Shown here one piece after another: positions 5,828-61,452 of a stretch of 64,000 bases of DNA. A model generated the notes under the pieces. That model saw only the letters and a program-made list of their open reading frames with translations. It did not search any database and was not told the origin of the DNA. Position numbers and translations under genes: made by a program. How positions within the stretch are numbered: position 1 is the first letter of the stretch; every line of letters begins with the position of its first letter. The stretch is from Myxococcales bacterium (GTDB lineage: Bacteria > Myxococcota_A > Polyangia > Haliangiales > Haliangiaceae), in NCBI GenBank assembly GCA_028287135.1, contig JAQBQE010000008.1:67155-131154 (forward strand), in the 5' to 3' direction.

Positions 5828-5833
5828 AGCTTA
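5828..5833 (-). promoter_or_regulatory. Predicted -10 element of HNH operon (TAAGCT)
   Basis: On the minus strand TAAGCT ends six bases before the ATG at 5821. No ribosome site fits between them, so transcription probably begins at or within a base or two of the ATG. Confidence 0.5.
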
Positions 5834-5849
5834 CGGTCCCGTTCACCGG

Positions 5850-5855
5850 TAGGCT
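5850..5855 (+). promoter_or_regulatory. Predicted -10 element of glutathione transferase gene (TAGGCT)
   Basis: TAGGCT is followed by seven bases and the ATG at 5863. It lies back to back with the HNH promoter inside a 41-base divergent spacer. Confidence 0.45.
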
Positions 5856-5862
5856 CGTCGCC

Positions 5863-6480
5863 ATGACGACCAAGCCGAGGCTGACGTACTTCGATCTCTC
5901 AGGGAGCCGCGGCGAGGAATGCCGCCTCGCGCTGCACCTCGCGGGGATCGACTTCGAGGATCACCGCTTGTCGCGAGCCGAGTGGGCAGCGCTCAAGCCG
6001 ACCACCCCGTTTGGCTCGGTCCCCGTCCTCGAGCTTCCGGGCAAGCCGCCGCTCGCGCAGTCGAATGCCATCCTCGTGCTGATCGGCCGGCGCCACGGAC
6101 TGCATCCCGCCGATGACTTCGAGGCGGCGCGCCACGAGGCGCTGATGGCGCACGTCGAGGATCTCCGTCACATGCTCTCGCCGACGCTGCGGATCAAGGA
6201 CGAAGATCAGAAGCGCGCGGTCCGCCAGGAGCTCGCGTCGGGGTATCTCCCGGCGTGGGCGGCCGCGACCGAGAACCAGCTCGGCGAGGGCCCGTTCGTG
6301 GCCGGCTCCACCCTGCAGGTCGTCGACCTCAAGCTCTACATGGTCGTGCGCTGGATCGCGACGGGGACGATCGATCACATCCCGGCGTCGGTGTTCGATG
6401 CGTACCCGAAGCTTCAGCGCCTGTACCAGGCCGTGCCCGCTCACGAGGGCGTGCGCGCGTGGAACGCTCGCGCCACCTGA
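5863..6480 (+). CDS. Glutathione S-transferase family protein
   Basis: A 205-residue two-domain GST. The N-terminal thioredoxin-like domain starts LTYFDLSGSRGEECRLALH, where the early Tyr and the SRGE region fit sigma/alpha-like GSTs. The cis-Pro and glutathione-binding segment is FGSVPVLEL, then LAQSNAILVLIGRRHG. The helical C-domain contains the usual N-capping/hydrophobic-staple region around STLQVVDLKLYMVVRW. It probably conjugates glutathione or a similar thiol to electrophiles in the cytoplasm. It stops three bases before the convergent DJ-1/PfpI gene. The substrate cannot be predicted. Confidence 0.85.
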   Translation: MTTKPRLTYFDLSGSRGEECRLALHLAGIDFEDHRLSRAEWAALKPTTPFGSVPVLELPGKPPLAQSNAILVLIGRRHGLHPADDFEAARHEALMAHVEDLRHMLSPTLRIKDEDQKRAVRQELASGYLPAWAAATENQLGEGPFVAGSTLQVVDLKLYMVVRWIATGTIDHIPASVFDAYPKLQRLYQAVPAHEGVRAWNARAT

Positions 6481-6483
6481 ACG

Positions 6484-7047
6484 TCAGTGCCGGGGCGACG
6501 GCTGCGGACGGTTGTTGCCGCTCGACGCCTCGGCCTGCACACCGAGCTGCTGCTCGATCGCGCGCGTGAACGCGGGCAGATCATCGGGCTTACGCGACGT
6601 GATCAACCGGCCATCGCGCGCGACCTCCTGATCGACCCAGCGTGCGCCGGCGTTGATCAGATCGGTCTTCACCGACGGCCATGACGTCAACGTCTTGCCG
6701 CGCACGACGTTGGCCTCGATCAGGAGCTGCGGTCCGTGACAGACCGCCGCGATCACCTTGCCGCCCCTGACCATCTCGCCGACGAACGAGACCATGTCCG
6801 CGTCCATCCGCAGGTGGTCGGGAGAATAGCCGCCCGGGATCACGAGCGCGTCGTACGAGCGATCGTCGACGTCGTCGACCGCCTTCTCGATCTTCACCTT
6901 CTCCTTGCCCTTCTTGCCGGCGACGATCTTGCCGGCCTCGATGCCAATGATGTCGATCTGGTGCCCGGCCGCCTTCAGGCCGTCATACGGGATGCGGAAT
7001 TCGCTGTCTTCGAAGTCGTCACCGAGGACGAATGCGATGCGTGACAT
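6484..7047 (-). CDS. DJ-1/PfpI family protein (protease/deglycase-like)
   Basis: A 187-residue cytoplasmic protein. The start MSRIAFVLGDDFEDSEF was chosen because an excellent AAGGAG ribosome site lies just upstream; a long in-frame extension into the neighbouring gene is spurious. Key features are the acidic residue in DDFEDSEF (about 11-17), the strand LVIPGGYSPDHLR and the nucleophile elbow AAVCHGPQLL, with Cys about 103 followed by His. This matches the PfpI/YhbO branch (stress-induced protease or protein/nucleotide deglycase). It lies downstream of the VWA lipoprotein on the same strand, with an 89-base gap. Confidence 0.85.
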   Translation of the reverse strand: MSRIAFVLGDDFEDSEFRIPYDGLKAAGHQIDIIGIEAGKIVAGKKGKEKVKIEKAVDDVDDRSYDALVIPGGYSPDHLRMDADMVSFVGEMVRGGKVIAAVCHGPQLLIEANVVRGKTLTSWPSVKTDLINAGARWVDQEVARDGRLITSRKPDDLPAFTRAIEQQLGVQAEASSGNNRPQPSPRH

Positions 7048-7136
7048 GGGAAATCTCCTTGGTGTCTCGAGGTGTTTGTGCCTCGATACCGTGCAGAGAC
7101 CGTGCCCAGATCGCGTAGGTCGATGGCTGACGGGGC

Positions 7137-8057
7137 CTACAGGATCGGCGGCGAGCAGTAGCTCTCGAGCACGACCGTGTTGATCGTCGCCGACAGCGAC
7201 AGCGAACCGTTCTTGACCTGATCGAGATCGTAGTTGCCGCCATCCGTCTGCGTCGGGATCGGCGGCTGTGCACCGTACGGCGTGGTCCAGCCGTCGGTGA
7301 TGTCCGTCCACGGCAGCCGGCGCCCCGTGCCGCAGCGAGCGAGGAAGCTCGGCTGCGTGATCCGCGAGAACGAGAACACGCGGATCCGCCCGGTCTTGAG
7401 CGCATCGACGGTCTCGACCAGCGTGTGCGCGGCGGGATAATTCCCCTCGCGCGGGAAGTCGGTCTTGTTGGTCAGGCCGTCGTGATCGCGATCGCCGTAG
7501 TTGTCGGGCCGCTCGAGGAAGGTGTCGTCGGTCACCAGGATCACCACCCGGGTCGCATTCGCCCGCCACGGAAAGCTCTCGGCCGCTGCATACAGCGCGT
7601 CGAGCGAGTTCTCCTCGCAGATCGGATTCTGCGTCGTCGGTCCGCTGACGCCATCACCAGGATTGCGATCCGCGTTGGTGAAGTTCATCCGGTAGTTGCG
7701 GAACGCACTCTGCAGGCTGGTCGCGCTCGTGTGCACGACGCCACCGTCGAGCGGTCCCGTGTTGTCGATGAAGTGATTGTCCTGGAACACGATCAGGCCG
7801 AAGTGCGCGTTCGGCGCGAGGGTGTTGCTCGCGCTGACGACCTGCGCGATCTGACTCTCGAGCTGCGACAGGACGAAGCCCATCGAGCTCGAGGTATCGA
7901 GCACGAACACCACATCGACGACGTCCTCGCAGACACCGGCATCGAACGTGGTGCCACCGTCGGCGCCGGGGTTCGAATTCGCATCGGCGCCGGACCTCGA
8001 CGCCGGGCCACAGCCGCCGATCACGGTCAATGCGAGGGCGAGGTGCGGGAGCTGCAT
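7137..8057 (-). CDS. VWA-domain lipoprotein
   Basis: A lipoprotein of 306 residues from MQLPHLALAL, with lipobox VIGGC, then an Asp/Gly/Asn-rich tether and a von Willebrand A domain. The MIDAS start FVLDTSSSM follows within about 60 residues, and RVVILVTDDT carries a later acidic metal-site residue. The domain is extended by a DRDHDGLTNKTDF acidic loop that could bind calcium. It is probably surface- or periplasm-anchored and ligand-binding. The start at 8057 was chosen because CATACT lies seven bases upstream; an upstream ATG at 8087 would put ten more residues before the signal peptide. It is third in a run of minus-strand lipoprotein genes. Confidence 0.75.
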   Translation of the reverse strand: MQLPHLALALTVIGGCGPASRSGADANSNPGADGGTTFDAGVCEDVVDVVFVLDTSSSMGFVLSQLESQIAQVVSASNTLAPNAHFGLIVFQDNHFIDNTGPLDGGVVHTSATSLQSAFRNYRMNFTNADRNPGDGVSGPTTQNPICEENSLDALYAAAESFPWRANATRVVILVTDDTFLERPDNYGDRDHDGLTNKTDFPREGNYPAAHTLVETVDALKTGRIRVFSFSRITQPSFLARCGTGRRLPWTDITDGWTTPYGAQPPIPTQTDGGNYDLDQVKNGSLSLSATINTVVLESYCSPPIL

Positions 8058-8124
8058 CGCGCGGAGTATGCCGAGGTGCCGGCCCATGCGGCCAGTCCCT
8101 CGATGACAGCTCCTGACGCGCGGC

Positions 8125-8547
8125 TCAGAGGTTGAAGCCGAGCTGCACGGTCGGCACCGTTCCCGACGCGGGCACGGTCAGCGCCTGGGCCGGGACCGAC
8201 GCCAGGGTCTGCTGGTTCTGTCCGTCGCGCAGCGTGGCGGTGATCGCCCACCGCCCCGGCGCGAGCCCGAGCGTGCCGGGATTGAGGATGCACTGGAACG
8301 TGTGGTTGGTCGGGAGGCCATTCTCCGCCGTCGCAACCACGTCGATCTCGGTCGCGCCGACGGCCGCGCACGTTGTGGTCGCGCCCTGACGACGGATCGT
8401 CCAGTTGAACGTCGTCGTCTGCCCGCCACCGCTCGGTGCATCGGGGATGGCGATGCCGCCATCGTCTTCACCGCCGCACGCCGCGAGCATCGCGACGAGG
8501 ACGAACGGGCTGACGAAACGAAGGTGCGCGTGATTCTTGGTGCTCAT
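8125..8547 (-). CDS. Small exported lipoprotein of unknown function
   Basis: A 140-residue lipoprotein starting MSTKNHAHLRF after a GGAG ribosome site. The signal peptide (FVLVAMLAAC) gives a clear lipobox LAAC followed by a Gly/Glu/Asp-rich tether. The mature part is beta-rich (TTTFNWTIRR, WAITATLRDG, TVPTVQLGFNL) and has two further Cys residues (TTCAAVG and FQCILN) that may form a disulphide. It lies 11 bases after the propeller-like lipoprotein, so they are probably co-transcribed. No family was recognised. Confidence 0.7.
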   Translation of the reverse strand: MSTKNHAHLRFVSPFVLVAMLAACGGEDDGGIAIPDAPSGGGQTTTFNWTIRRQGATTTCAAVGATEIDVVATAENGLPTNHTFQCILNPGTLGLAPGRWAITATLRDGQNQQTLASVPAQALTVPASGTVPTVQLGFNL

Positions 8548-8557
8548 CTCGATCTCC

Positions 8558-9940
8558 TCACGGGTGATAGCGCAGCAGCAGGCCGAGGTCACCACCGGCC
8601 CAGACATCCCCGGTGCTGGTGGCCCACAGGGCGTTGATCGTTCGCGTCGTGCCGCTGACCTCGGGCGTCCATGCGCCGGCGCCGACCTTCTTGAGGATCG
8701 TGCCGCCGGTGCCCGCTGCCCACAGCGTCGAGCCGGAGCCCGTGATCGCGAGCAGCTGCTGGGTCACGCCGCTCGGCGAGATCGTCCAGTCGGTCCCGTT
8801 GTAGTGGAGGATCGTGCCGCCATCGCCGACCGCCCACACGTCGTTCGCCGCGACAGCGTGCACCGCGCGCAGATAGTTCTGCGTCGGGAACGTACGATTC
8901 ACCGTCCAGCTGATCCCGTTGTACGAGGCGACCAGCGGACCGGCGGGAAGATCGGTCACGCTGCCGTTGCCGACCGCCGCGCCGACGGCCCACACGGAAT
9001 TCGACGCGGCCGCCGAGACGCCGAGCAGGTGCCAGCCGAGATCGAACGTCCCGCCGAAGCTGAGGTCCGTCCACGCGCCGCCGTCCCAGTGACTCGCGCT
9101 TGCTCGCGCCCCGCTGCCCGAGCCGAACTGACCGACCACCCAGATGTCCGTCGAGGAGATCGCGTGCATCGAGGTCCAGGTCCGGCTCGACATCGTCGGC
9201 ACGACGAACGAGCTGCCACTTGGCTTGAGCAGCGCGCCACTCGAGGCCGCGAGCCACATCGACGCCCCCGAACCGGCACCGCCGCGAAGTGCGTAGGCTC
9301 CGGCGGCAACGGACTTCCAGCTCGTGCCGTCGAACCGCAGGAGCTTGCCCTCGGTGTTGCTCGCCGCGGCCGCCAGCACCTCGGTGCCAGTGCCCCACAG
9401 ATCACGCACCATCAGATCGTCAGCGAGCGTGCCGCCGACCGCCCGGCACCAGCCCGACGAGCTGCACAGGATCTCGTCGCACAGCCCGTAGCTATGTGCA
9501 CCGCACACGCCCGCGCTACAGGTTCCACAATCCGGGTTGCGGGTGATGCCGCACGAATCGACGACGGTGGTCGTGCCGCACTCGGTGAGCGCGGCCTGCG
9601 CGCACAGCGCCGCGTCGGTCTCCGGGACGCACTCCGCGGGGGCCGCGCATCGATTCGGGATCCCGGCGCCCTCGCAGATCGCCGGCAACGTGCAGCTACA
9701 GTCGATCGTGCCGCCGCAGTCATCGTCAAGCGTGCCGCACTGGTTCGCGCCGCACGTCTTCGGCACGCATGCGGGTGCGTCCGGCCCGACGGTGACCTCG
9801 CAGATTCCGCCCGCGTTGCACAGGTAGCCGTCGAGGCAATCCGCCTGGACCGCGCACTGATTCTTGGTCGAGCCCTTGTCGAGTCCACATCCGATCGCGA
9901 CCAGGCTCACGACCCACAGGCAAAGCTTCGCGTTCATCAT
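8558..9940 (-). CDS. Lipoprotein with Cys-rich N-terminus and propeller-like repeats
   Basis: A 460-residue lipoprotein with signal VVSLVAIGC. Residues 25-165 are Cys-rich (NQCAVQADC, YLCNAGGICE, DDDCGGTIDCSC), resembling the disulphide-stabilised tethers common in myxobacterial lipoproteins. The remainder has repeated motifs of the type DVWAVGDGGTILHYNGTDW and STLWAAGTGGTILKK, at least five copies, typical of surface beta-propeller folds. It ends STGDVWAGGDLGLLLRY. A GGAGG-like site precedes the double ATG. It probably binds ligands or displays on the cell surface; no catalytic motif is seen. Confidence 0.75.
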   Translation of the reverse strand: MMNAKLCLWVVSLVAIGCGLDKGSTKNQCAVQADCLDGYLCNAGGICEVTVGPDAPACVPKTCGANQCGTLDDDCGGTIDCSCTLPAICEGAGIPNRCAAPAECVPETDAALCAQAALTECGTTTVVDSCGITRNPDCGTCSAGVCGAHSYGLCDEILCSSSGWCRAVGGTLADDLMVRDLWGTGTEVLAAAASNTEGKLLRFDGTSWKSVAAGAYALRGGAGSGASMWLAASSGALLKPSGSSFVVPTMSSRTWTSMHAISSTDIWVVGQFGSGSGARASASHWDGGAWTDLSFGGTFDLGWHLLGVSAAASNSVWAVGAAVGNGSVTDLPAGPLVASYNGISWTVNRTFPTQNYLRAVHAVAANDVWAVGDGGTILHYNGTDWTISPSGVTQQLLAITGSGSTLWAAGTGGTILKKVGAGAWTPEVSGTTRTINALWATSTGDVWAGGDLGLLLRYHP

Positions 9941-9992
9941 CTCGTCCTCCGACAGCTCCTACGGTCGTGCTGCGATGTTCGGCCGCACAAAG

Positions 9993-11603
9993 TCACCACC
10001 GCGCTCCGAGCGACAGCGAATACATGCCGCCACCGTCGGCCTCGACGCGCGGGACCACCTGCACCGTCGACCGTGGCCACAGCCACCACGCTGCCGCGCC
10101 CGCGACGATCGCCACCGCGCCCGACGTGAGCGCGATCGGGAGATAGCGGTCGTAGCGCACCTGCGCATCGTGGGCCGGCCTCTGCAGCGTCGTCGCGGTG
10201 AAGTCGCTGTGGGCCTGATACGCGAGGAAGCCGGTGGTCAGCGCGGTCGCCGCTCCGACCCCACCGATCACGCCGGTACCGATCGCGATCCGCTTGCGGA
10301 TCCGGCGGTGGTCGGTCCGGACGAGCGCGCTCGAGCTGCGCTCCGGAAACCGAACGCCCACCGCGCCGATGCTGTCGACGAAGCCCTGGTAGTACGCCCG
10401 GCCATAGCCCGACGAGAACAGCGCGGTCTGGTACGCGACCTCGATGCTGCCGCGGCTCGCGATCTGGCGATCTCGCAACGTCAGCTTGTCGAGGCTGACC
10501 GCGCCTCGCGCCGGCAACACCGCCTCGTGCGCGGCGGTGCGCAGGAACACGGTGGTCGCTTCGGGCACCGCGAGCACGATCGAGGCTCCCTCGTCGAGGT
10601 GGGCGTCGAGGTAGCGCTGACCGTTCTCGAGCTCGAGATAGAAGTGGCCGAGCGCCGCCGCCTTGCCGCGGATCATCCGCATGCCGGCGATCCCCGACAG
10701 TGTCAGCAGGGGCGCGTTCTGGTTCGATGCGGGCGGCCGTGCAATCACCTGCGGGATCGCGCGCGGATCCTTGATGTCGCGATTCGCCGCGGCGACGAAC
10801 GCCTGGATCTCGGTGTACTCGACGACGAGGTCCCCGTTGACGTCGGCGGCGCCCTGGAGTCCCGACAGCAGCTCGTGCGTGAATACGCCCGATTCGATCG
10901 TCGACCACTCGTGGGCTTCCTGGCCGAGCGTGGTCGCGAGGATCACGCCGATCTGCGGATACCGCGCGAGCGGGGTCGCCTGCAGGATCGGCTCGACCTC
11001 GGCGGAGATCGTCGGCGTGGACGTCGCATCCGCCTCGCGTGCGAAGAAGCCGCCGCCGCGCACGCCGACCACGCCACCCGCGTGACACGCGTCGACGATC
11101 AGGTGAGTGAACGTCGTCGGCATCCGCGCGAGCACGTCCTCGTACAGCGTGGTCTGGGTCAGCGCTCCATCGAGCAAGGCAAGGAACGCATGCCCGCGAT
11201 CGTCGCGCGCACCGTGACCGCTGAACACGAAGTACAGCACCGGACGATCGCCGCGCTGGCGATCGCGCGTCATCTTGGCCCGCAGATCCTCGACGACGCG
11301 GTGCAGGTTATCGACCGTCGGCGGCTGCGCGTGGGCGGCGAGCCCCGGATAGCGGCGCTGCGTCTGGGTATCGAGAACGACGAGCAGGTGGGTCTCGGCG
11401 ATCCGCGAGAACAGCTGGTGATAGCGCACCGCATCGTCGTCGGCGTAGCGCAGCGGTCGCAGCGTCTCCGACGTGCCCGCGCGAGGCGGCTCGTTGTTGC
11501 CGATCACGATCGCGTACGCGACCTGCTTGCCGTCCGCGGCGGCCGGGCGAGCGCCGAGCATCATCAGGCAGACGACGACGATGACGTTGCGCGGCAGTCT
11601 CAT
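9993..11603 (-). CDS. Exported caspase-family (peptidase C14) protein with C-terminal membrane segments
   Basis: A 536-residue protein with an N-terminal signal or anchor (residues 6-23) and a caspase-like domain. VAYAIVIGNNEP is the typical first strand, the catalytic His lies in YFVFSGHGARDD (about 130) and the Cys in LIVDACHAGG (about 173). Later regions hold NGDLVVEYTEIQAFV, an EF-hand-like acidic loop, and two hydrophobic segments near 435-460 and 490-513 that could be membrane helices. The ATG overlaps the stop of the preceding one-TM gene (ATGA). Together with the ECF sigma factor this looks like a regulated proteolysis module. Arg/Lys cleavage specificity, typical of metacaspase-like proteins, is a guess. 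Confidence 0.8.
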   Translation of the reverse strand: MRLPRNVIVVVCLMMLGARPAAADGKQVAYAIVIGNNEPPRAGTSETLRPLRYADDDAVRYHQLFSRIAETHLLVVLDTQTQRRYPGLAAHAQPPTVDNLHRVVEDLRAKMTRDRQRGDRPVLYFVFSGHGARDDRGHAFLALLDGALTQTTLYEDVLARMPTTFTHLIVDACHAGGVVGVRGGGFFAREADATSTPTISAEVEPILQATPLARYPQIGVILATTLGQEAHEWSTIESGVFTHELLSGLQGAADVNGDLVVEYTEIQAFVAAANRDIKDPRAIPQVIARPPASNQNAPLLTLSGIAGMRMIRGKAAALGHFYLELENGQRYLDAHLDEGASIVLAVPEATTVFLRTAAHEAVLPARGAVSLDKLTLRDRQIASRGSIEVAYQTALFSSGYGRAYYQGFVDSIGAVGVRFPERSSSALVRTDHRRIRKRIAIGTGVIGGVGAATALTTGFLAYQAHSDFTATTLQRPAHDAQVRYDRYLPIALTSGAVAIVAGAAAWWLWPRSTVQVVPRVEADGGGMYSLSLGARW

Positions 11604-12205: not shown

Positions 12206-12353
12206 GAGACGGCCCCCGCGTATCCCGCGCTGAACAGGCGATCAAGCGTGAAGTTCCGGCAGCCCATGACTGCTCCTACGGGGCGGGGCCCGATCTCGGC
12301 CGCTCGATCGGAGGCGCCGGAGATCTGTCGTCATCTCAGTCACTTGCGAGGCA

Positions 12354-12378: not shown

Positions 12379-12394
12379 CGGCAGCGACGCGCGA

Positions 12395-16308: not shown

Positions 16309-16314
16309 ACTCTA
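16309..16314 (-). promoter_or_regulatory. Predicted -10 element of M16-sigma unit (TAGAGT)
   Basis: On the minus strand TAGAGT ends six bases before the GTG at 16302, with no Shine-Dalgarno sequence. This points to a leaderless transcript. Confidence 0.45.
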
Positions 16315-20599: not shown

Positions 20600-20605
20600 T
20601 AGAAT
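20600..20605 (+). promoter_or_regulatory. Predicted -10 element (TAGAAT) of GNAT gene
   Basis: TAGAAT is followed by exactly six bases and the ATG at 20612. This is one of the clearest examples of the leaderless start pattern in this window; no -35 element is obvious. Confidence 0.55.
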
Positions 20606-25259: not shown

Positions 25260-25292
25260 CGCTCACGCACGCTAGCACTGGTTCGCGTCGAC

Positions 25293-28382: not shown

Positions 28383-28388
28383 TACAAT
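28383..28388 (+). promoter_or_regulatory. Predicted -10 element (TACAAT) of 28397 gene
   Basis: TACAAT is followed by eight bases and a GTG at 28397. It therefore overlaps the first codons of a longer reading frame beginning at 28376 and argues for the GTG start. Confidence 0.45.
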
Positions 28389-28396
28389 CGGCGCCA

Positions 28397-29440
28397 GTGG
28401 CTGGGGGCAACGATCCGCTGAATCCGAAGCTGCCGTCGACCCGGAAGGGTCAGACCGAGCCGCTGGAGCCGCTATCGCCGTTCACCGAGGAGAGCACCGC
28501 GCTTCACTCGACCGAGGATCTCGACGCGATGTTGCGCAAGGCAGAAGCAGCGGCCGCCGCCGAGCCGGCGCGCCAGGCTGCGCCTAGCCCGTTCGCCGAC
28601 GACGAGCACACGATTCTCGGCTCCGCGCAGGAGCTCGAAAACCTCGCGAAGAAGGCCGCGCCCGAGCCCGAGCTGCCGAAGTCCTCGGCCAACACGGTCC
28701 GCCGTCGCACGAACCCGATGGGCGTCGCGCAGGTGACCGGCCAGATGGCGACGGTGCGAGCGTCCGGATCGATGCCCATCCCGACGGCACCCGCGCCGAC
28801 CACGGTACCGCCGCCGGTCCGTGCAGCCGCCCCGGCGACGCCGTCAGACGATGAGCTGTTCGACGCCGCGTTCGCCGACCCGGAGCCGGGCCCCGCTGCC
28901 CCGCCCGCACCGTCCCGAAGCCACGAGCCCACGCCCGCTCCGCCGGTCACGCCGCAACGAGCGCGCGAGCCCACGCCGGCTCCGCCGGTCCGGACGCGCG
29001 AGCCGACGCCCGCACCACCGCCACGGGTCCGCGAGATGCCGCCACCGGCGTTACGTCCGGCATTCCCGAACGCACCGCGGATGGAGGTCGAGGAAGCGCA
29101 ACGCGCGTTCGACGCCGACGCAGTTCGACCCACGGCCCCGACGAATCGGCGTGGGCTCATGATCGCCGTGGGCTCGGCGCTGGTGCTCGCGCTTGCGGGC
29201 GCCGGCCTCGCCTACAGCCGGATCTCCGCTGCCGACGAGCGAACGGCAGCAGCGGAGCGCAAGGTGACGTCGTCGCGCCTCCAGGCCGAGGACGCAGCGG
29301 GCGAGCTCGCGGCTGCCCGGGCCCGGATCGAGGCGCTGAAGTCAGCGAACGAAGCGCTCGAACGCAGGATCGCAGCGCAGGGCCGCGCCGACGCAGAACG
29401 CGTGCCGGTCGTCGACCCGGTCGTCAAGCCGAAGCGCTAG
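28397..29440 (+). CDS. Pro-rich membrane protein with C-terminal coiled coil
   Basis: 347 residues if translation starts at GTG 28397 (354 from the ATG at 28376). The N-terminal half is disordered and Pro/Ala-rich, with repeated REPTPAPPV-type motifs. One transmembrane helix is at about 262-280 (GLMIAVGSALVLALAGAGLAY), followed by a charged coiled coil (ADERTAAAERKVTSSRLQAE). The topology suggests a long cytoplasmic N-terminus and a periplasmic coiled coil. The proline-rich repeats are typical of scaffold or spacer proteins. No enzyme motif was found. Confidence 0.7.
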   Translation: MAGGNDPLNPKLPSTRKGQTEPLEPLSPFTEESTALHSTEDLDAMLRKAEAAAAAEPARQAAPSPFADDEHTILGSAQELENLAKKAAPEPELPKSSANTVRRRTNPMGVAQVTGQMATVRASGSMPIPTAPAPTTVPPPVRAAAPATPSDDELFDAAFADPEPGPAAPPAPSRSHEPTPAPPVTPQRAREPTPAPPVRTREPTPAPPPRVREMPPPALRPAFPNAPRMEVEEAQRAFDADAVRPTAPTNRRGLMIAVGSALVLALAGAGLAYSRISAADERTAAAERKVTSSRLQAEDAAGELAAARARIEALKSANEALERRIAAQGRADAERVPVVDPVVKPKR

Positions 29441-31120: not shown

Positions 31121-31126
31121 TATCCT
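31121..31126 (+). promoter_or_regulatory. Predicted -10 element (TATCCT) of cysteine-cluster gene
   Basis: TATCCT is followed by seven bases and the ATG at 31134, with no ribosome site. Confidence 0.45.
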
Positions 31127-35172: not shown

Positions 35173-35178
35173 GTTGTA
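35173..35178 (-). promoter_or_regulatory. Predicted -10 element (TACAAC) of HExxH lipoprotein
   Basis: On the minus strand TACAAC ends six bases before the ATG at 35166. The divergent GST promoter lies 20 bases away. Confidence 0.45.
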
Positions 35179-35198: not shown

Positions 35199-35204
35199 TA
35201 TGAA
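35199..35204 (+). promoter_or_regulatory. Predicted -10 element (TATGAA) of second GST gene
   Basis: TATGAA is followed by six bases and the ATG at 35211. Confidence 0.4.
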
Positions 35205-36567: not shown

Positions 36568-36573
36568 ATCGTA
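36568..36573 (-). promoter_or_regulatory. Predicted -10 element (TACGAT) of PilZ-like gene
   Basis: On the minus strand TACGAT ends seven bases before the GTG at 36560. Confidence 0.4.
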
Positions 36574-40064: not shown

Positions 40065-40070
40065 AGCGTA
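40065..40070 (-). promoter_or_regulatory. Predicted -10 element (TACGCT) of 40058 lipoprotein
   Basis: On the minus strand TACGCT ends six bases before the ATG at 40058. Confidence 0.45.
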
Positions 40071-40124: not shown

Positions 40125-40130
40125 TACGAC
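40125..40130 (+). promoter_or_regulatory. Predicted -10 element (TACGAC) of exported phosphodiesterase-like gene
   Basis: TACGAC is followed by seven bases and the GTG at 40138. Confidence 0.35.
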
Positions 40131-42333: not shown

Positions 42334-42339
42334 ATCCTA
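42334..42339 (-). promoter_or_regulatory. Predicted -10 element (TAGGAT) of membrane protein gene
   Basis: On the minus strand TAGGAT ends seven bases before the ATG at 42326. Confidence 0.5.
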
Positions 42340-42819: not shown

Positions 42820-42838
42820 GTTATAGATCAGATAGGAT
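42820..42838. promoter_or_regulatory. Interleaved divergent -10 elements in a 34-base spacer
   Basis: TATAAC (minus strand, 42820-42825) is six bases from the ATG at 42813. TAGGAT (plus strand, 42833-42838) is nine bases from the ATG at 42848. Any -35 region of each promoter would lie inside the other gene or its promoter, so the two cannot easily fire at the same time. Confidence 0.55.
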
Positions 42839-43600: not shown

Positions 43601-43606
43601 TAAACT
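43601..43606 (+). promoter_or_regulatory. Predicted -10 element (TAAACT) of HAD-MazF operon
   Basis: TAAACT is followed by seven bases and the ATG at 43614; no ribosome site is present. Confidence 0.5.
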
Positions 43607-48702: not shown

Positions 48703-48746
48703 GAGACTGCGACCCTAGCAGCCGCGAGGCATACTCGACCACGCAC

Positions 48747-51131: not shown

Positions 51132-51137
51132 AGCTTA
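51132..51137 (-). promoter_or_regulatory. Predicted -10 element (TAAGCT) of 51125 gene
   Basis: On the minus strand TAAGCT ends six bases before the ATG at 51125. The hexamer is identical to that of the HNH gene. Confidence 0.5.
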
Positions 51138-51961: not shown

Positions 51962-51967
51962 TACCTC
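51962..51967 (+). promoter_or_regulatory. Predicted -10 element (TACCTC) of acyl-CoA dehydrogenase gene
   Basis: TACCTC is followed by seven bases and the GTG at 51975. Confidence 0.35.
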
Positions 51968-54620: not shown

Positions 54621-55024
54621 TGGATTTCTTCTTTCTCTCAGCGGTGTCCTGGAAAAGCAGGTGTGCAGCCACCACGCCACCACCTACCCATGCAGAAGGC
54701 GGGTCGATCACGACGCGCACGTGCGCCACGCTTCGCCAGCTGCCCAGGGCGCGCGTGCGCCAATGCAGCGCTACGACGCGAGAAGCTCGATCCGACGGAC
54801 CGTGAGGATTCTGCACACGGCGGTGATTCGCGTCACGGCCGAAGCGTGATGGCGGCTCGTGGTGACGGTTTGTCGTCACCTGGCTCCCGCGGATCGCTAT
54901 CCTCGCCGCGTACCGTCATGAGATCCTACCCTCGCCTGCCGGTTCTCCAATCGACGCTGCTCGCCCTCGTGGGTTGCATCGAAGGCGAAGATGTTCCCGC
55001 CGCCCTGACCAGCTACGCTGCGGT
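54621..55024. other. Intergenic gap, no certain gene
   Basis: About 400 bases between the hydrolase start and the 55025 gene. A short plus frame from ATG 54918 begins with a lipobox-like signal (STLLALVGC) but loses coding character after about 40 codons and overlaps the next gene, so it is not called. No RNA gene or repeat was seen. Confidence 0.4.
55014..55019 (+). promoter_or_regulatory. Predicted -10 element (TACGCT) of 55025 gene
   Basis: TACGCT is followed by five bases and a GTG at 55025; used to choose this start over a longer frame. Confidence 0.4.
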
Positions 55025-55660: not shown

Positions 55661-55665
55661 CCTGC

Positions 55666-55671
55666 TACGCT
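55666..55671 (+). promoter_or_regulatory. Predicted -10 element (TACGCT) of small lipoprotein
   Basis: TACGCT is followed by six bases and the GTG at 55678. Confidence 0.4.
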
Positions 55672-55677
55672 GAAGAC

Positions 55678-55872
55678 GTGCGCTGGTCGTTCTCGATCCT
55701 GATGGTTCTCGGCAGCTGTGGTCCGAGCACGAACAGCAAACCGTCGGGGACCGCGTCCGATCCGGTGCTGACCTGCGAGCGAGTCGCCGACGTGTGCCGC
55801 CTCGACGGCGCGCGGCTCGGTGTGTGCGTGCACGCAAAGGCCGGTGGCTTCGCGTGTCAATCGCAGCACTGA
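55678..55872 (+). CDS. Very small lipoprotein
   Basis: 64 residues from GTG: signal RWSFSILMVLGSC (lipobox LGSC), tether PSTNSKPSGTASDP, then a short Cys-bearing end (LTCERVADVCRLDGARLGVC, then FACQSQ). The four Cys could make two disulphides. Size and composition match small lipoproteins elsewhere in the window. Function unknown. Confidence 0.55.
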   Translation: MRWSFSILMVLGSCGPSTNSKPSGTASDPVLTCERVADVCRLDGARLGVCVHAKAGGFACQSQH

Positions 55873-55885
55873 GCACTCAGCGCGG

Positions 55886-55891
55886 TACAGT
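55886..55891 (+). promoter_or_regulatory. Predicted -10 element (TACAGT) of VOC-family gene
   Basis: TACAGT is followed by six bases and the GTG at 55898. Confidence 0.4.
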
Positions 55892-55897
55892 CGTCCC

Positions 55898-56263
55898 GTG
55901 AAGATCGTCCCGGTGATCAAGTGCAGCGATCTCGCTCGATCGATTGCGTTCTACACCCGGACGCTGGACTTCGAGCTCGCCGACCCGAGCGACACAGGTC
56001 CCGTCATCGAGGTGATCCACGGCGATGCCGAGCTCCAGCTGTCGACCATGAGTGGTGACGGGATGTTCGGATGCGCGGTCAACGTCTGGGTCGACGACGT
56101 CGATGCGCTGTTTCAGAACTACCTCGCGCGCGGCCTCGACACCTCGGACCGGGCCGGCTCGCCCATCCACCAGGGACCCATCAATCAGACGTGGGGCACG
56201 CGCGAATTCTACGTGACCGATCCGGACGGCAATACGCTGCGCTTCCGACAGCCGATCCAGTGA
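55898..56263 (+). CDS. VOC-superfamily (glyoxalase/bleomycin resistance-like) protein
   Basis: 121 residues from GTG. KIVPVIKCSDLARSIAFYTR is the standard first betaalphabeta unit of VOC domains. ELQLSTMSGD, VNVWVDDVDALFQNYLARG and TREFYVTDPDGNTLRFRQP complete the two-module fold, with the usual Glu/His positions changed. It is a bleomycin-resistance-type binding or glyoxalase-like enzyme. Single-domain members dimerise. Substrate unknown. Confidence 0.75.
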   Translation: MKIVPVIKCSDLARSIAFYTRTLDFELADPSDTGPVIEVIHGDAELQLSTMSGDGMFGCAVNVWVDDVDALFQNYLARGLDTSDRAGSPIHQGPINQTWGTREFYVTDPDGNTLRFRQPIQ

Positions 56264-56314
56264 ACCGTCCGGATGCGACTGCCCGCCGACCGGGCCCGTC
56301 CGGATCAGGACACG

Positions 56315-57478
56315 ATGCGCCTCGCCCCGCTCGCGTTGTTGCTGCTGGTGCCCGGGCCCGCCCTCGCGGAATCGCGCCCCGCACTCGATGATTTCTACGA
56401 TCGGACCCGCTCGCGCGACGACGGCTTTGACACCTGCATCGGCTACTGCTCCGAGCACTGGCTCGCTGGCTTTCTGATCGGCGCGCAGACCGCCAATCCG
56501 TCGACCGACGCCGCGCAGCCGCAGGTCGCCACCGGCGCCCGGCTCGGCATCGATCTCGCGATGCGCGGCAGCTACGCCAACATCGCGCGCACCAAGCTGT
56601 GGAGCGATGTGCTGCGCGTCAACAGCACGGGCGACTGGATCACCGATCTCGCGTGGCAGACCACCGCGTTCGCAGCGACCGCCAAGCCGGGCGAGCCGGG
56701 CTTGCACCTCTCGCTCGATACGCTGGTCGCGCAACGCACCGAGCTCGAGCCCTCGGACCTCGCGCAGCTCCAGCGTACGCCGTACCGCGTGTTCGATGCC
56801 GAGGCCGAGGTTGCTCCGACCGCGAACATGGTCGACAAGGATGCGTTTTGGACGTTGCCGATCGGCATCGCGAATCGCCTGCGCTGGTCCGATGACATGC
56901 AGGTCGATCGGCGCACCAGCATCTCCGGCGCGGTCGCGTTCCGCGGCTTCCCGAACGGCCTTCGTCACCACTACCAGCTCGACCTGTTGCGCGTGAAGTA
57001 CACGAACTGGGACGTCGACGGCGGTGGCGCGTCGTCGTGGACGGTGTCTGCAGGGTACCAGCGGCTGTCGCCCGGGATCGAGGAGCTCCAGATCTGGCTG
57101 CTCGCCGGTTACGAGCACGCAGGCGAACGCCATGGCCCGATCGTGCAGCTTGGTGCGGAGATCACGCTCGGCAACTTCGAATTCGGCCCTGCGCTGGAGG
57201 AGCACCTCGAGCTCGATCCGCGCACCGCGGAGCTCACGCGCGTCTATCAGGGGCGGTTCTACGTCCACCACAAGATCGACCGCCTACGCTGGGGCCTCGC
57301 GTACGAGGCGGTGCTCGTCGAGGACAGCTCACGCCTGCACGCGCTGACGCCCGAGCTCGGTGTCCACCTGATGGGTCTCGATCTCGTCGTTCGCTACCGG
57401 CTGACGGCGCTCCGCGATGACCGCATGCCGGGTGCACCGCGCGATCGGTTTCACGTCGCGCTCGATCGTCGGTTCTAG
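56315..57478 (+). CDS. Outer-membrane beta-barrel-like protein (LpxR/DUF2219-like)
   Basis: 387 residues: signal LAPLALLLLVPGPALA, then alternating aromatic/hydrophobic strands (WLAGFLIGAQTANP, IDLAMRGSYANIART, SSWTVSAGYQRLSPG, LQIWLLAGYEHAGERHG, FYVHHKIDRLRWGLAYEAV) and a C-terminal Phe (VALDRRF), typical for outer-membrane insertion. The organisation resembles DUF2219 lipid-A deacylase-like barrels, but catalytic residues were not verified. Its stop shares CTAG with the convergent peroxiredoxin-like gene. Confidence 0.65.
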   Translation: MRLAPLALLLLVPGPALAESRPALDDFYDRTRSRDDGFDTCIGYCSEHWLAGFLIGAQTANPSTDAAQPQVATGARLGIDLAMRGSYANIARTKLWSDVLRVNSTGDWITDLAWQTTAFAATAKPGEPGLHLSLDTLVAQRTELEPSDLAQLQRTPYRVFDAEAEVAPTANMVDKDAFWTLPIGIANRLRWSDDMQVDRRTSISGAVAFRGFPNGLRHHYQLDLLRVKYTNWDVDGGGASSWTVSAGYQRLSPGIEELQIWLLAGYEHAGERHGPIVQLGAEITLGNFEFGPALEEHLELDPRTAELTRVYQGRFYVHHKIDRLRWGLAYEAVLVEDSSRLHALTPELGVHLMGLDLVVRYRLTALRDDRMPGAPRDRFHVALDRRF

Positions 57479-58044
57479 GCCGTGACGGCGTTCGCTTCGA
57501 GCCATTCGATCACCACGCTGGCATTCTGGTCTGGCGGAAACACCGGATAGAACACCTTACGGATCACGCCTCTCACGATCACGAGCGCCAGCCGCTTCAT
57601 CAGGATCTGGTCGGCGACGGTGAACACCGGGAGCTTCAACGCATGGGTGAGCATCAGTGACTCGTCGCTGAGGAGCGGAAACGTCAGGTGCAGGCGAGCC
57701 GCAGCCTCCGCCTGGTACGACGGCGACTGCGTGCTCACGCCATGAACGAGGAACCCACGCGAGCGAATGCGATCCAGCTCGTCGCGAAACCCGCATACCT
57801 GCGGCGTGCAGCCACGAGCACCGGCGATCTGATCCCACTCCGGGACCAAGGGCTGTTTGCCAGGTTGACCGGTACGCGGATACGCGAACAACACCGTCGT
57901 GAGCCCACGCAGGTCAACGGATCGTCCCGTGGTCGACGGAAGGCTCAGATCCGGCATCTGCGTGCCCTCGAGGTGGCGCGCAGTACCGTCGTCCTCGGGC
58001 GCGGGCAGATCCGACGGCAGTACGTTGAGGTCTCGGAGGGTCAT
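57475..58044 (-). CDS. Peroxiredoxin-like (AhpC/TSA family) protein
   Basis: 189 residues from MTLRDLNVLPSDL. The redoxin domain shows MPDLSLPSTTGRSVDLRG, then VLFAYPRTGQPGKQPL and AGARGCTPQVCGFRDELDRI, the active-site CTPQxC of the atypical peroxiredoxin subgroup whose members have YPRTGxPGE...GARGCTPQSCAFRD. GVSTQSPSYQAEAAARLHL follows. It should reduce peroxides or act as a redox sensor. A longer frame starts at 58119 inside the divergent RCC1 gene and is less likely. The C-terminus shares CTAG with the convergent barrel gene. Confidence 0.75.
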   Translation of the reverse strand: MTLRDLNVLPSDLPAPEDDGTARHLEGTQMPDLSLPSTTGRSVDLRGLTTVLFAYPRTGQPGKQPLVPEWDQIAGARGCTPQVCGFRDELDRIRSRGFLVHGVSTQSPSYQAEAAARLHLTFPLLSDESLMLTHALKLPVFTVADQILMKRLALVIVRGVIRKVFYPVFPPDQNASVVIEWLEANAVTA

Positions 58045-58105
58045 GTCAGCGGCGGCGTCAGCTTCGCTTGGCGAACCACGTCTCGCAAGCGCGTCACAGG
58101 TCGCG

Positions 58106-58111
58106 TACAAC
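58106..58111 (+). promoter_or_regulatory. Predicted -10 element (TACAAC) of RCC1 lipoprotein
   Basis: TACAAC is followed by six bases and the ATG at 58118. Confidence 0.45.
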
Positions 58112-58117
58112 TCGTGC

Positions 58118-59194
58118 ATGCAGCTCCGACGGCGGTTCTCCGTTGCTGTGCTTCTGCTTGTCGCGAGCTGCGGCAGCCCACCCATCGGCGGTCCGAGCTC
58201 GACGGCGGTCGCGGAAGCACCGGTGACCGTCACGAAGACGGCACCACCAGCGTCACCTGGTGGCTACCGCGACATCGTCGACACCGACACGGGCGGCTGC
58301 GTCCTCTACACCGATGGCCGTGTCGCGTGCTGGAAGCACGGCCGCGTCTCGCGACCGGCGAGCGCCACGTTCGTTCCCGATCTCTCCGACGCGATCGCGA
58401 TCGAGTCCGTCCCGGGCGCAGTTCGGGTTCTTCGTCGCACGGGCAAGGTCTACAAGCACGGCCTTGCGTTCGGCACCTCCAACGACTGGGTGAGCGCGCC
58501 GGGTCCGGTGGTCGAGCTCGCGGAGCGCTGCCTGCGGCTCAGCGACGGTACCGTCCACTGTGACTGCCACGTCGGCCTGCAAGCGACTCCGTTCAAGCTC
58601 GAGGCGACCGATGTCGCGAGTGGCGGCAATGCGAGATGCGCGGTGACCAAAGCCGGCGATGTCGAGTGCTGGGGCCAGCCGTCGCCGGTCCTCGGCAACA
58701 ACTGGTCGGCCGGCACCACGGAGCACGAAGGCTGGTGCCCGACGGCGCGCGCGTCCCATCGGTTTGGTGATGCAACCGCGATCGTGCTCGGCGACAGCCA
58801 CGGGTGTGTGCAGAGGCGTTCCGGTGCAGTCGCGTGCTGGGGCGAAGATGACCGGGTCGGTGGCAAGCGCGCGCCGGATGCGCCGGATGCGCCCGTGACC
58901 GTGAAGCTCCCCCCGGCTCAATGGCTGCGCGCCGCCCAGGATGCGACCTGCGCGATCACGCGCGACCGCGACGCCTACTGCTGGGGTGACTTCCGTCATC
59001 CAGCGTTTGCGAAGGGCGTCAGGTCCTGGCAGCGCGAGCCGGTGAAGCTGCCGCTCGACCGGGTCACCGCGATCAGCCAGCACGTGTCGAGCGCGATCGT
59101 CGACGACGGCAATCGCGTGGTGAGCTGGAGCTGGCGCGACGACTGCGCGGGCACGCAGTGCGACGTGCCCTACGACATCGCAATGCCTCGCTAG
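58118..59194 (+). CDS. RCC1-repeat lipoprotein
   Basis: 358 residues from MQLRRRFSVAVLLLVASC (lipobox VASC). The mature part has RCC1-like units: GGCVLYTDGRVACWKHG, NARCAVTKAGDVECWGQPSP, SHGCVQRRSGAVACWGEDDR and DATCAITRDRDAYCWGDFRH. Each has the C....DG.V.CWG pattern, predicting a seven-bladed-propeller-type surface protein with a disulphide in each blade. Many myxobacteria have RCC1-like exported proteins. Its stop shares CTAG with the convergent DUF4091 gene. Confidence 0.75.
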   Translation: MQLRRRFSVAVLLLVASCGSPPIGGPSSTAVAEAPVTVTKTAPPASPGGYRDIVDTDTGGCVLYTDGRVACWKHGRVSRPASATFVPDLSDAIAIESVPGAVRVLRRTGKVYKHGLAFGTSNDWVSAPGPVVELAERCLRLSDGTVHCDCHVGLQATPFKLEATDVASGGNARCAVTKAGDVECWGQPSPVLGNNWSAGTTEHEGWCPTARASHRFGDATAIVLGDSHGCVQRRSGAVACWGEDDRVGGKRAPDAPDAPVTVKLPPAQWLRAAQDATCAITRDRDAYCWGDFRHPAFAKGVRSWQREPVKLPLDRVTAISQHVSSAIVDDGNRVVSWSWRDDCAGTQCDVPYDIAMPR

Positions 59195-61056
59195 CGAACA
59201 CCACCAAGTGCGCGTGCGAGCTGGTAGCGCGCCGCCTCGTAGACATCGCCCGTCTGTGCGAACTGCACCGTCGAGCCCGCCTCCGAGAACACCGCCGGGA
59301 CCACGGCTGCGAGTGCCGCTGAGACCTCGGCGTCGAGACCGCGCTGGCGAGCGAGCGAGAGATAGAGGTGGTCCTGGACACCGCGCCGCAAGTTCGCGAG
59401 CTGGATCGAGCCGATCGGGCCGGCGATCCCACGATCCTGATCGGGGTGGAGCACTTCCTCCCCGGGATACAGCACGACGCCGTCGCCGTGGATGAAGCCC
59501 TGACTGTTGACCGGCTTGTTCGGCTGGCCACGATTGTCGAACGTGATCGTGTTGGCCCACACGTTCTGCTTCCGCTCGCCCTGCTTCTGAAAGTTGTGCT
59601 CCCAGTGATCCGCGTGCCAGTAGAAGTAGGTCTCGACGCCGTGCTTGAACGCGGCCCACGCGTTGACCCGCGGATCGGTCGCGGGTGCGTCGATCGTGAG
59701 TGCGCCGGTCTCCGGGCGCGTGCCGTTGTAGAACCAGTACTTCTTGCCCTTCGCGCGTTCGGTCGCGGCGCGTGACGGGTCAAAGCCCGCGGCCGAGCTG
59801 CACCAGATGTCGATCGCGCCATCGAGGCCCGACTCGTACGAGCTGGTCACGAACACCGGCAGCGCGCGGCCAGGGCCCGGGTTGCTGTCGATGTTCTGGC
59901 CGATCGTGTTGATCCGCGGGTACTGCGACGCACCCGGCTCGTCGGGCATGTAGAGGAACGTCCGCGCATTCGGAGCGTTGGTCGCGAGCGCGGCCATCCA
60001 CGCATCCGAGGTCGTCCACGCACTGGCGCGATTGTCGTAGGCGCTGCCCGGTCCGTAGAAGCTCGCGGGTGCGATCGTGTTGCCGACGCCCGCGCCAGGG
60101 CCGTCGTAACCCGCCTCCGCCGTGAAGTGGCTCCCATCGAATCGTCCGCGCGCGGCGCTGAGCGAGCTCGGGCTGTACGCATTCACCAGCTCGATCCGGT
60201 GGCGATGCGCAAACCGGTGATAGCGATCCGTCAGACTACGGCCCTGATAGAGCGAGACCTGCCCGGGCTCGAAATAGATCATCGCCGTCATCGAGCCCTC
60301 GTCCGGAAGCTCGAAGTCGAACACCTCGAGCTCGACGGGCACCCGGCGAAGTCCGCCACTCGCGCGGAGCTCGACCGCGCCGTCGTACATGCCGGGCGCG
60401 AGGCCACGCGGGATGTAGACCTCGATCCAGATGGCCTGATTACGGCGGCCCGCAATATCGATCGGCAGTCCGCCGCGTCCCTGCCGCGCATTCTCGGGCA
60501 CCAGCTGCACCGGCTTCCAGCCGACCGGATCCGCGGGTGCCGCGGCGCTGCCCGGCTGCCACAGCCAGCGCGCCTGGGTCGGCGCCGTCACGTTCATGTA
60601 GTTCTCGGTGAAGATCTGGATCGGGCGCCCGACCGACGCACTCGGATCATCTCCGGGTGGTGCGTAGACGATTGCACCGCCGCCACCGCGCCTGGTGAGG
60701 GACGCGAGGTCGACGTCCATCTGTTCGATGCCGGCCTCGTCGGACTCGATCACGACCTGGAAGGCGACGATCTCGTTGCGACCGCCGAAGATCCGCGCGG
60801 CGCCCTCGCGCCACGCCGTGTTGCCGGAACGCGCGGGATGCTGGAGATCATCGCGCTCGACCTTCTCGCCGTCGTGGACCGCCCACACCGCGGCGAGTCC
60901 GGCGATCGGTCGCTCCTCCTCGGAGACGACCGCGTCGGCGGCGGTTGCGTCCGTGGAAGCTGCGTCGCCGTCGACCGCTGCCGCCTCGGTGCGAGATCCG
61001 CAGTGGATGAATGCCACCGCGCCGAGGGCGACCGCGATGCTCTGGTAGTTGCGCAT
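59191..61056 (-). CDS. DUF4091-domain lipoprotein (glycoside-hydrolase-like)
   Basis: 621 residues from MRNYQSIAVALGAVAFIHC (lipobox FIHC), then an Ala/Asp-rich tether. An N-terminal beta-sandwich (EIVAFQVVIESDEAGIEQMD, YDGAVELRASGGLRRVPVEL) is followed by a TIM-barrel-like region (TDRYHRFAHRHRIELVNAYS, TFLYMPDEPG with acidic residues). The end (ANLRRGVQDHLYLSLARQRG) resembles the DUF4091 C-terminus (usual form GIEDYEYL). It is likely a secreted polysaccharide-acting enzyme; the catalytic Asp/Glu in MPDEPG is a guess. CATGCT lies six bases before the ATG. Confidence 0.7.
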   Translation of the reverse strand: MRNYQSIAVALGAVAFIHCGSRTEAAAVDGDAASTDATAADAVVSEEERPIAGLAAVWAVHDGEKVERDDLQHPARSGNTAWREGAARIFGGRNEIVAFQVVIESDEAGIEQMDVDLASLTRRGGGGAIVYAPPGDDPSASVGRPIQIFTENYMNVTAPTQARWLWQPGSAAAPADPVGWKPVQLVPENARQGRGGLPIDIAGRRNQAIWIEVYIPRGLAPGMYDGAVELRASGGLRRVPVELEVFDFELPDEGSMTAMIYFEPGQVSLYQGRSLTDRYHRFAHRHRIELVNAYSPSSLSAARGRFDGSHFTAEAGYDGPGAGVGNTIAPASFYGPGSAYDNRASAWTTSDAWMAALATNAPNARTFLYMPDEPGASQYPRINTIGQNIDSNPGPGRALPVFVTSSYESGLDGAIDIWCSSAAGFDPSRAATERAKGKKYWFYNGTRPETGALTIDAPATDPRVNAWAAFKHGVETYFYWHADHWEHNFQKQGERKQNVWANTITFDNRGQPNKPVNSQGFIHGDGVVLYPGEEVLHPDQDRGIAGPIGSIQLANLRRGVQDHLYLSLARQRGLDAEVSAALAAVVPAVFSEAGSTVQFAQTGDVYEAARYQLARALGGVR

Positions 61057-61452
61057 CGCGCGAGCATGACAAGGCGATCTCCGATGCGCCCGGAAGTCGA
61101 AGCGCGGTCAGTGCGCGGTCGCGCTGGACGCGGCTTCAAGGGAGTGGAGACGCGCTTTTCTTGCCCGACACGCCGACACGTTGTTTCCGCGGAAGCGTCC
61201 GCGGGTTACCGCGATCAGCCAACCCTATGCCGAGCCCTCAGTGAAGGCAGTCGCGCCGGGGCACTGGTCGGTCTCCCGAGCCCACCATCCGTGACGACGT
61301 GTCGCCCGCGTTGCTTCGTAGACGTGGAGTGTCTCCACGCCTCGCACTGGAGCGATTTGCCTCACAGGTTCATGACGCACCTCCGGCAACGTCTCGCTAC
61401 CGTGACACTGCGTGGGGGCGGCGGAGAGTGCCTGACAACGCGGGGAGAACAC
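61057..61452 (+). promoter_or_regulatory. Upstream region of serine-protease unit
   Basis: Nearly 400 bases without a gene. About 104 bases before the protease ATG is TGGAGCGATTTG (61348-61359), repeated at 62467-62478 before the next gene, 80 bases from its ATG. The ribosome sites of both genes are also similar (GCGGGGAGAACAC and GCGGGGAGGACAT just before ATGGT). This suggests a shared leader or a duplicated regulatory region. The composition is less extreme than the rest of the window. Confidence 0.35.

Follow-up and report, generated by a model that had tools for sequence, protein, structure and literature searches.

Where transcription begins relative to the start codon, and how the ribosome then finds that codon, is the question raised by a 64,000-base stretch of DNA from a Myxococcales bacterium (contig C45:67155-131154; hereafter the window), in which many genes carry a TAnnnT-like hexamer a few bases before their start. 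An earlier note on this DNA had read the hexamers as -10 elements of promoters for leaderless genes, whose transcription starts on or next to the start codon and which lack a Shine-Dalgarno (SD) site. We examined this reading in the window, in further stretches of the same genome, and in relatives and control genomes. With a probability of roughly 0.87, the hexamers are -10 elements of extended -10 promoters, so placed that transcription would start on or next to the start codon and yield leaderless mRNA. In this genome, genes not in contact with their upstream neighbour seem for the most part to be transcribed from around the first codon, without a leader on which a ribosome could land. The earlier reading is supported by position-specific enrichment of the box, by variants of it that are not stop codons, by displaced and held-out controls, by orthologues, and by the finding of no excess of downstream starts with SD sites.

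Enrichment of the hexamer before start codons

The window belongs to a metagenome-assembled genome (MAG) of 4.84 Mb in 71 contigs, with an estimated completeness of 59.5%. Our own-genome sample consists of the window and 38 stretches (758 kb), from which 565 of 625 genes were used; genes were excluded if the stretch contained no neighbour upstream of them, if they scored below 15 for coding, or if they started less than 100 bases from the edge. Genes were called with a custom, self-trained finder based on a 3-periodic Markov model, with the start chosen by coding score alone. A gene is termed first-type when its upstream neighbour lies on the opposite strand, or at least 80 bases away on the same strand; the rest are termed near. 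Strict counts of TAnnnT allow several candidate starts per gene, all close in coding score, and the displaced controls use the same candidates.

Strict TAnnnT hexamers cluster just before the start codon. Within the window, 13 of the 41 first-type genes have one at a gap of 5-9 bases from a candidate start (displaced gaps 0, 2, 2, 7, 2 and 3), while the 758-kb sample gives 98/343 first-type genes (24, 26, 23, 34 and 19 at five displaced distances) and 51/222 near genes (11, 10, 6, 12 and 9). When each gene is given one start by coding score only, 220 divergent genes contain 42 such hexamers, distributed as 18, 11, 4 and 9 over gaps 6, 7, 8 and 9; further upstream, the same genes show about one per position.

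A matrix trained outside the window assigns boxes to a share of 0.73 of the window's 41 first-type genes (90% bootstrap interval 0.54-0.86, 30 resamples), and displaced windows scored with the same matrix give 0.12, 0.22, 0.26 and 0.20; in this held-out test the gene model, unlike the matrix, had seen the window. A sharper first matrix yields 0.53 of the first-type genes in the whole sample, with a control of 0.05. Because these two matrices give 0.73 and 0.53, we express the share of first-type genes predicted to be boxed as a range of about one half to three quarters.

Promoter-like context of the box

Extended -10 promoters have the pattern TRTGn. Among 141 aligned boxes, G is found at -2 in 62% and at -4 in 51%, and the spacer between the box and the start codon is A/T-poor and GC-rich. 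The context resembles an extended -10 promoter, with a G two bases upstream and no clear -35 element; the upstream G had been overlooked in the earlier note and agrees with its promoter reading. Specifically, no peak stands out in the -35 search: TTGACA four-of-six matches number 6, 5 and 7 at spacings 16-18, compared with about 3 per spacing.

Seeded with TAnnnT alone, expectation-maximisation on the own genome arrived at gaps of 6-7 and added G-T-G upstream of the hexamer. The same seeded fit, applied to 249 first-type genes of six other genomes of the genus and family, regained the upstream G-T-G with a mode gap of 6. A motif fit in which the SD component was left free ended in an SD matrix without meaning, and this matrix was therefore kept fixed afterwards. 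Seeded fits on the Deinococcus deserti plasmid (59 genes), Sorangium (44), the class (199) and the outside-class genomes (112) gave no clean TAnnnT; because these fits converged elsewhere, the fixed matrix or strict counts alone were used for those samples.

Boxes and Shine-Dalgarno sites divide by spacing

To describe how the two signals are distributed, a mixture model of -10 boxes versus SD sites was applied to the own sample; it treats the two signals as alternatives, and the scarcity of SD sites is thus read by class, not by gene. Divergent genes (n = 231) have a -10 share of 0.78 and an SD share of 0.17, and same-strand genes at least 80 bases away (n = 112) have 0.47 and 0.27. Same-strand genes 10-79 bases away (n = 114) reach 0.81 and 0.15, with displaced box controls of 0.17 and 0.02. 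Among genes that overlap the upstream gene or lie less than 10 bases from it (n = 108), the -10 share is 0.14, within the range of its displaced box controls (0.22 and 0.05), and the SD share is 0.77. SD sites are thus scarce in the boxed classes (0.15-0.27) and retained at closely coupled genes (0.77), the distribution expected by class of leaderless genes.

SD initiation is alive in this genome and reserved largely for closely coupled genes. Closely spaced genes without contact resemble, for the most part, transcription units of their own, and the 81% of the 10-79-base class to which the model gives a start-adjacent promoter suggest a largely monocistronic genome. The rule of the earlier note, GGAG sites at internal operon genes, applies to neighbours that overlap or are less than 10 bases apart, but not to those 10-79 bases apart, which mostly carry the box. 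An early reading of our own, made with near genes pooled, was that operon genes in general carry boxes; the split by spacing shows that mainly those with gaps of at least 10 bases do.

Start codons and orthologues

Of 179 confident genes, 111 have ATG after the box, 67 have GTG and 1 has TTG. A Pfam scan of 20 window proteins, chosen mostly for their box, left 6 without a match. Five matches begin within the first seven residues: glutathione S-transferase (GST) 35211 at residue 1, glyoxalase 55898 at residue 2, methyltransferase 25259 at residue 4, GST 5863 at residue 6 and PilZ 36560 at residue 7. In those five proteins there is therefore little room for an alternative start.

Two orthologue sets with the N terminus present were compared, namely the acyl-CoA dehydrogenase gene 51975 with 9 relatives (63-76% identity) and the M16 gene 16302 with 8 relatives (41-55% identity). 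The M16 relative L249 has a frame with an internal stop, and other database matches of both genes were excluded. Counting the window genes, a strict TAnnnT lies 5-9 bases before a start close to the aligned N terminus in 6/10 acyl-CoA dehydrogenase and 4/9 M16 genes, compared with 0/19 in each of three displaced windows; if TAnnnC is also allowed, the counts are 7/10 (controls 2, 0, 0) and 5/9 (controls 0, 0, 1). The orthologues' start codons lie up to 18 bases off the window-protein position, in an ungapped alignment that is rough for M16. Their 45 upstream bases are only 31% (acyl-CoA dehydrogenase) and 26% (M16) identical, which is about chance. Since boxes are kept at the right distance while the upstream DNA has diverged to about chance, it looks as though the arrangement, not the sequence, is conserved. 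One acyl-CoA dehydrogenase relative from the same class (L241, genome G031) has, by eye, TACCAT 10 bases before its start, just beyond the scored range.

Distribution among relatives and control genomes

The box was also sought in relatives, each represented by 36-66 first-type genes (29 in one) from 0.09-0.14 Mb, and in control genomes (E. coli and Thermus, 0.05 Mb each). Kinship labels are those of the search tool, and the fixed matrix derives from the own genome, so that lineages whose box differs may escape it. Shares by the fixed matrix and strict counts (five displaced counts in brackets) are as follows; displaced controls for the fixed matrix lie at 0.02-0.18 across the phylum samples.

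Same genus: fixed matrix 0.57, 0.41; strict 13/50 (0, 3, 3, 3, 0), 12/46 (5, 3, 2, 1, 2)
Same family: fixed matrix 0.70, 0.52, 0.37, 0.23; strict 15/42 (2, 0, 1, 1, 2), 16/36 (6, 7, 8, 6, 6), 8/46 (3, 4, 1, 4, 6), 3/29 (0, 0, 0, 1, 3)
Same order: fixed matrix 0.50, 0.33, 0.13; strict 9/43 (4, 2, 3, 0, 0), 8/41 (3, 3, 2, 1, 1), 7/48 (4, 3, 3, 3, 2)
Same class: fixed matrix 0.28, 0.20, 0.14, 0.12; strict 9/48 (2, 3, 4, 3, 6), 9/56 (1, 5, 3, 8, 7), 7/54 (6, 3, 7, 2, 6), 3/41 (3, 2, 4, 2, 0)
Phylum, outside the class: fixed matrix 0.01, 0.02; strict 8/66 (11, 13, 4, 12, 3), 1/46 (0, 0, 5, 1, 5), no excess
Sorangium: fixed matrix 0.08 (control 0.10); strict 3/44 (0, 0, 3, 2, 1)
E. coli: fixed matrix 0.04 of 21 genes (control 0.28); strict 3/21 (7, 7, 7, 8, 7), no excess
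Thermus, 50-kb plasmid: fixed matrix 0.29 of 16 genes (control 0.06)
Deinococcus deserti, 150 kb of plasmid 1: fixed matrix 0.28 of 59 first-type genes (control 0.07)

Among the relatives, both genus samples and two of the four family samples show a clear signal; the other two family samples show a weaker one. The signal is moderate in two of the three order members and patchy in the order as a whole. Sorangium and the two genomes sampled beyond the class show SD sites; in them, the box does not rise above control by the fixed matrix and is absent at this sensitivity. The G+C content differs widely among genomes that keep the box: 74% in G012 (L124-L130), 65.5% in G007 (L131-L137), 68% in the own genome and 50% in the family member G017 (L144-L150).

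Proposed mechanism

An RNA polymerase holoenzyme, probably carrying the sigma-70 factor RpoD, would recognise the extended -10 box, approximately G-T-G-N-TAnnnT, without a strong -35 element. A GC-rich spacer of mostly 6-7 bases would separate the box from the start codon. Applying the usual -10 to +1 spacing to this spacer length places the start of transcription at the start codon, and the polymerase would start at a distance of about 0-4 bases from the A or G that opens ATG or GTG. The mRNA would then begin at or almost at the start codon, and initiation would take place without SD contact. Translation would begin when the 5-prime start codon is accepted by a ribosome that is probably either a 70S particle or preloaded with IF2 and initiator tRNA (see PMC9031893 and PMC10783764). 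Genes overlapping the preceding gene, or nearly touching it, mostly carry no box and use SD sites. An RpoD gene is present in the MAG at L001:1261-3207, and its product is 88% identical to the RpoD of Myxococcales bacterium isolate RYN_366, with 78% identity for isolate TH-Jun18-119 and 62% for Sorangium cellulosum So0157-2; these values place the genome in the Myxococcota, as an uncultured member. No 16S gene was found in this MAG, which is an estimated 59.5% complete, and the matches to a 16S 3-prime-end pattern at L121 and L123 look like chance matches outside rRNA.

Alternative explanations

The hexamer could, in principle, be a translation signal, an S1-type or low-structure element in transcripts that have ordinary leaders. 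AT-rich bias before starts can reflect S1 binding, according to PMC5397173, and the near-start location is the one feature that fits here; the signal itself is TAnnnT with a preceding G.G. and a GC-rich spacer, and not diffuse A/T. Moreover, the box stands at control level in genes that overlap or lie less than 10 bases from their neighbour, and since such genes need translation but no promoter, this argues against a translation signal, which we regard as improbable. The boxes could also be real promoters whose genes have their true starts at a later codon, following a short leader that includes a ribosome site. Calling starts in high-GC DNA is difficult and many genes offer alternatives, yet downstream in-frame ATG or GTG codons preceded by an SD word are rarer (6/256) than those out of frame (20/284), with no excess of hidden downstream SD starts, and the early Pfam matches in 5 of the 20 scanned proteins are likewise at odds with this explanation; we consider it very improbable.

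Lastly, an in-frame TAG or TAA just upstream of the chosen start could mimic the hexamer. In 231 divergent genes, TA[AG]nnT does peak at the in-frame gaps 6 and 9 (11 and 8; also 6 at gap 7). TA[CT]nnT, which can never be a stop codon, is nevertheless enriched at gaps 6, 7 and 8 (18 occurrences, against 0.63 per position) in the same genes, where TGnnnT shows no enrichment, and the two outside-class genomes and E. coli, processed identically, show no excess. The artefact is excluded as the main cause and hardly credible as a general explanation, although it may account for some false calls.

Several observations weigh against the promoter reading. Some box calls may be stop codons, given the in-frame peaks of TA[AG]nnT. 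TAnnn[ACG] likewise exceeds its background at gaps 5-7 (9, 7 and 15 versus 3.3), an excess that would be expected of imperfect boxes. At in-frame start codons within genes, the shares are 0.13 (box) and 0.30 (SD sites); the displaced controls range from 0.02 to 0.28 depending on the class, and the box share varies with matrix softness (0.48, 0.53 and, in training, 0.67). The strict box is absent in 9 of the 19 orthologues. Spacing 13 also has 7 four-of-six matches to TTGACA, so that a -35 element is not clear, and C at -1, considered as an initiator sign, was dropped, being equally common in genes without a box. The Thermus plasmid is a weak positive control by strict counts (4/16 versus 4, 1, 2, 1 and 3), and it and the D. 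deserti plasmid are small samples that provide a loose calibration.

Boxes and Shine-Dalgarno sites in the window

All twelve hexamer and start pairs named in the earlier note are present, each with a gap of 6 or 7. Its figure of about 30 boxed genes fits as well, since P(-10) exceeds 0.5 in 31 of the 56 window genes examined (18/29 divergent, 7/12 same-strand far and 6/15 near). The P values given here, P(-10) unless marked P(SD), come from a matrix trained with the window included. The boxes and candidate boxes are:

5828..5833, minus strand: TAAGCT, gap 6 to ATG 5821 of an HNH endonuclease gene, 5414-5821 (PF01844, E 1.3e-9); P 0.81
5850..5855, plus strand: TAGGCT, gap 7 to ATG 5863, glutathione S-transferase, divergent to the HNH gene; P 0.99
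8063..8070, minus strand: possible box, CATACT at gap 7 or TACTCC at gap 5, before ATG 8057 of a VWA-type protein; P 0.73
16309..16314, minus strand: TAGAGT, gap 6 to GTG 16302, peptidase M16 protein; P 0.97
20600..20605, plus strand: TAGAAT, gap 6 to ATG 20612, GNAT acetyltransferase; P 0.92
25269..25274, minus strand: TAGCGT, gap 9 to ATG 25259, methyltransferase, TrmK-like; P 0.98
28383..28388, plus strand: TACAAT, gap 8 to GTG 28397; P 0.95
31121..31126, plus strand: TATCCT, gap 7 to ATG 31134, CxxCxxCC protein, upstream gene just 28 bases away; P 0.99
35173..35178, minus strand: TACAAC, gap 6 to ATG 35166; P 0.90
35199..35204, plus strand: TATGAA, gap 6 to ATG 35211, glutathione S-transferase (Pfam GST_N from residue 1); P 0.96
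36568..36573, minus strand: TACGAT, gap 7 to GTG 36560, PilZ domain; P 0.59
40065..40070, minus strand: TACGCT, gap 6 to ATG 40058; P 0.89
40125..40130, plus strand: TACGAC, gap 7 to GTG 40138, endonuclease/exonuclease/phosphatase family; P 0.96
42334..42339, minus strand: TAGGAT, gap 7 to ATG 42326; P 0.92
42820..42825, minus strand: TATAAC, gap 6 to ATG 42813; P 0.80
42833..42838, plus strand: TAGGAT, gap 9 to ATG 42848, divergent to the box at 42820; P 0.95
43601..43606, plus strand: TAAACT, gap 7 to ATG 43614; P 0.93
48712..48717, minus strand: TAGGGT, gap 9 to GTG 48702, 2OG-Fe(II) oxygenase; P 0.90
51132..51137, minus strand: TAAGCT, gap 6 to ATG 51125; P 0.89
51962..51967, plus strand: TACCTC (no strict TAnnnT), gap 7 to GTG 51975, acyl-CoA dehydrogenase; P 0.96
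55014..55019, plus strand: TACGCT, gap 5 to GTG 55025, frame open to 55660
55666..55671, plus strand: TACGCT, gap 6 to GTG 55678, open reading frame (ORF) of just 64 codons
55886..55891, plus strand: TACAGT, gap 6 to GTG 55898, glyoxalase family; P 0.99
58106..58111, plus strand: TACAAC, gap 6 to ATG 58118, in the frame of a gene ending at 59194

The pair at 55678 is the weakest of the twelve, given its 64-codon ORF. For the gene at 58118, our caller picked 58223 instead, with an SD-like site (P(SD) 0.85). The earlier note had also used the boxes to fix four start codons. Those at 28397 and 36560 are supported by their boxes; 8057 has just the two imperfect candidates listed above, and 55025 has its box at gap 5, but the caller favours a start 60 bases downstream. 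In the divergent pairs 42813/42848, 35166/35211 and 5821/5863, the start codons are 35-45 bases apart with one box per strand, so that two start-codon promoters would stand back to back within a few dozen bases.

Five genes had been named as contrasts with ordinary ribosome sites, and GGAG-type sites are found before all five, less surely before 49409:

6484..7047, minus strand: AGGAGA, gap 6, no box; P(SD) 0.96
8125..8547, minus strand: AGGAGA, gap 5; P(SD) 0.97
Start 49409 (49110 in the earlier note): GGAG-type site, less sure; P(SD) 0.57
61453 and 62547: GGAG-type sites judged by eye, both genes outside the gene table

Implications and comparison with known systems

The leaderless mode looks unusually dominant in this genome, and it was not detected in our samples of three other members of the phylum. 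Tentatively, and at somewhat under even odds, we propose that leaderless extended -10 promoters are the default in the family and part of the order, that the genome is largely monocistronic, that the level rivals or exceeds that of Deinococcota, and that the state was gained or lost inside one phylum. Our data would add an uncultured family of Myxococcota to the bacteria in which leaderless expression is strong and, if the contrast holds, would offer in this phylum a setting for comparing relatives across the switch between SD-led and leaderless initiation. Gene finders that rely on SD sites may misplace starts in genomes of this kind, and constructs for expression in these bacteria may require a correctly spaced box rather than a ribosome site.

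Leaderless genes have long been known in bacteria, delta-proteobacteria included, and at least one broad survey has included the group. Four features appear to be new: how strong the signal is in this uncultured lineage, its extended -10 context, the spacing-dependent SD split and the uneven spread in the phylum. Among the titles listed by a literature search that mostly leaves out subscription papers, none concerns leaderless genes in Myxococcota.

In mycobacteria, leaderless transcripts coexist with SD genes. Many such transcripts are described there (PMC4633059) and were mapped by experiment, whereas ours are predicted from sequence. The earlier note knew of no survey in this group; Table 2 of Zheng 2011 (PMC3160421), however, covers delta-proteobacteria, and Zhong 2025 (PMC12340547) presents a bacteria-wide scan of phyla (Fig. 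S7), which may include Myxococcota. Lomsadze et al. are cited in the StartLink paper (PMC9581028). Zheng 2011 reports leaderless genes in 207/953 bacterial genomes, with a mean of 15.8% (range 5.7-20.6) in 8/33 delta-proteobacterial genomes, 19.2% in Actinobacteria and 39.4% in Deinococcus-Thermus. Its 'TA-led' genes resemble ours in having a TA-like signal about 10 bases before the start and in coexisting with SD-led genes; by model estimate, our share of 0.48 among 565 genes looks higher than that of its delta-proteobacteria, but the methods differ. Zhong 2025 gives about 30% of ORFs on average for Deinococcus-Thermus and finds that TAnnnT a few bases before the ORF works experimentally as a promoter for leaderless mRNA in Deinococcus. 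Our boxes share this motif and position with Deinococcus-Thermus, but they belong to another phylum, are predicted from sequence and are preceded by a prominent G.G. of the extended -10 type.

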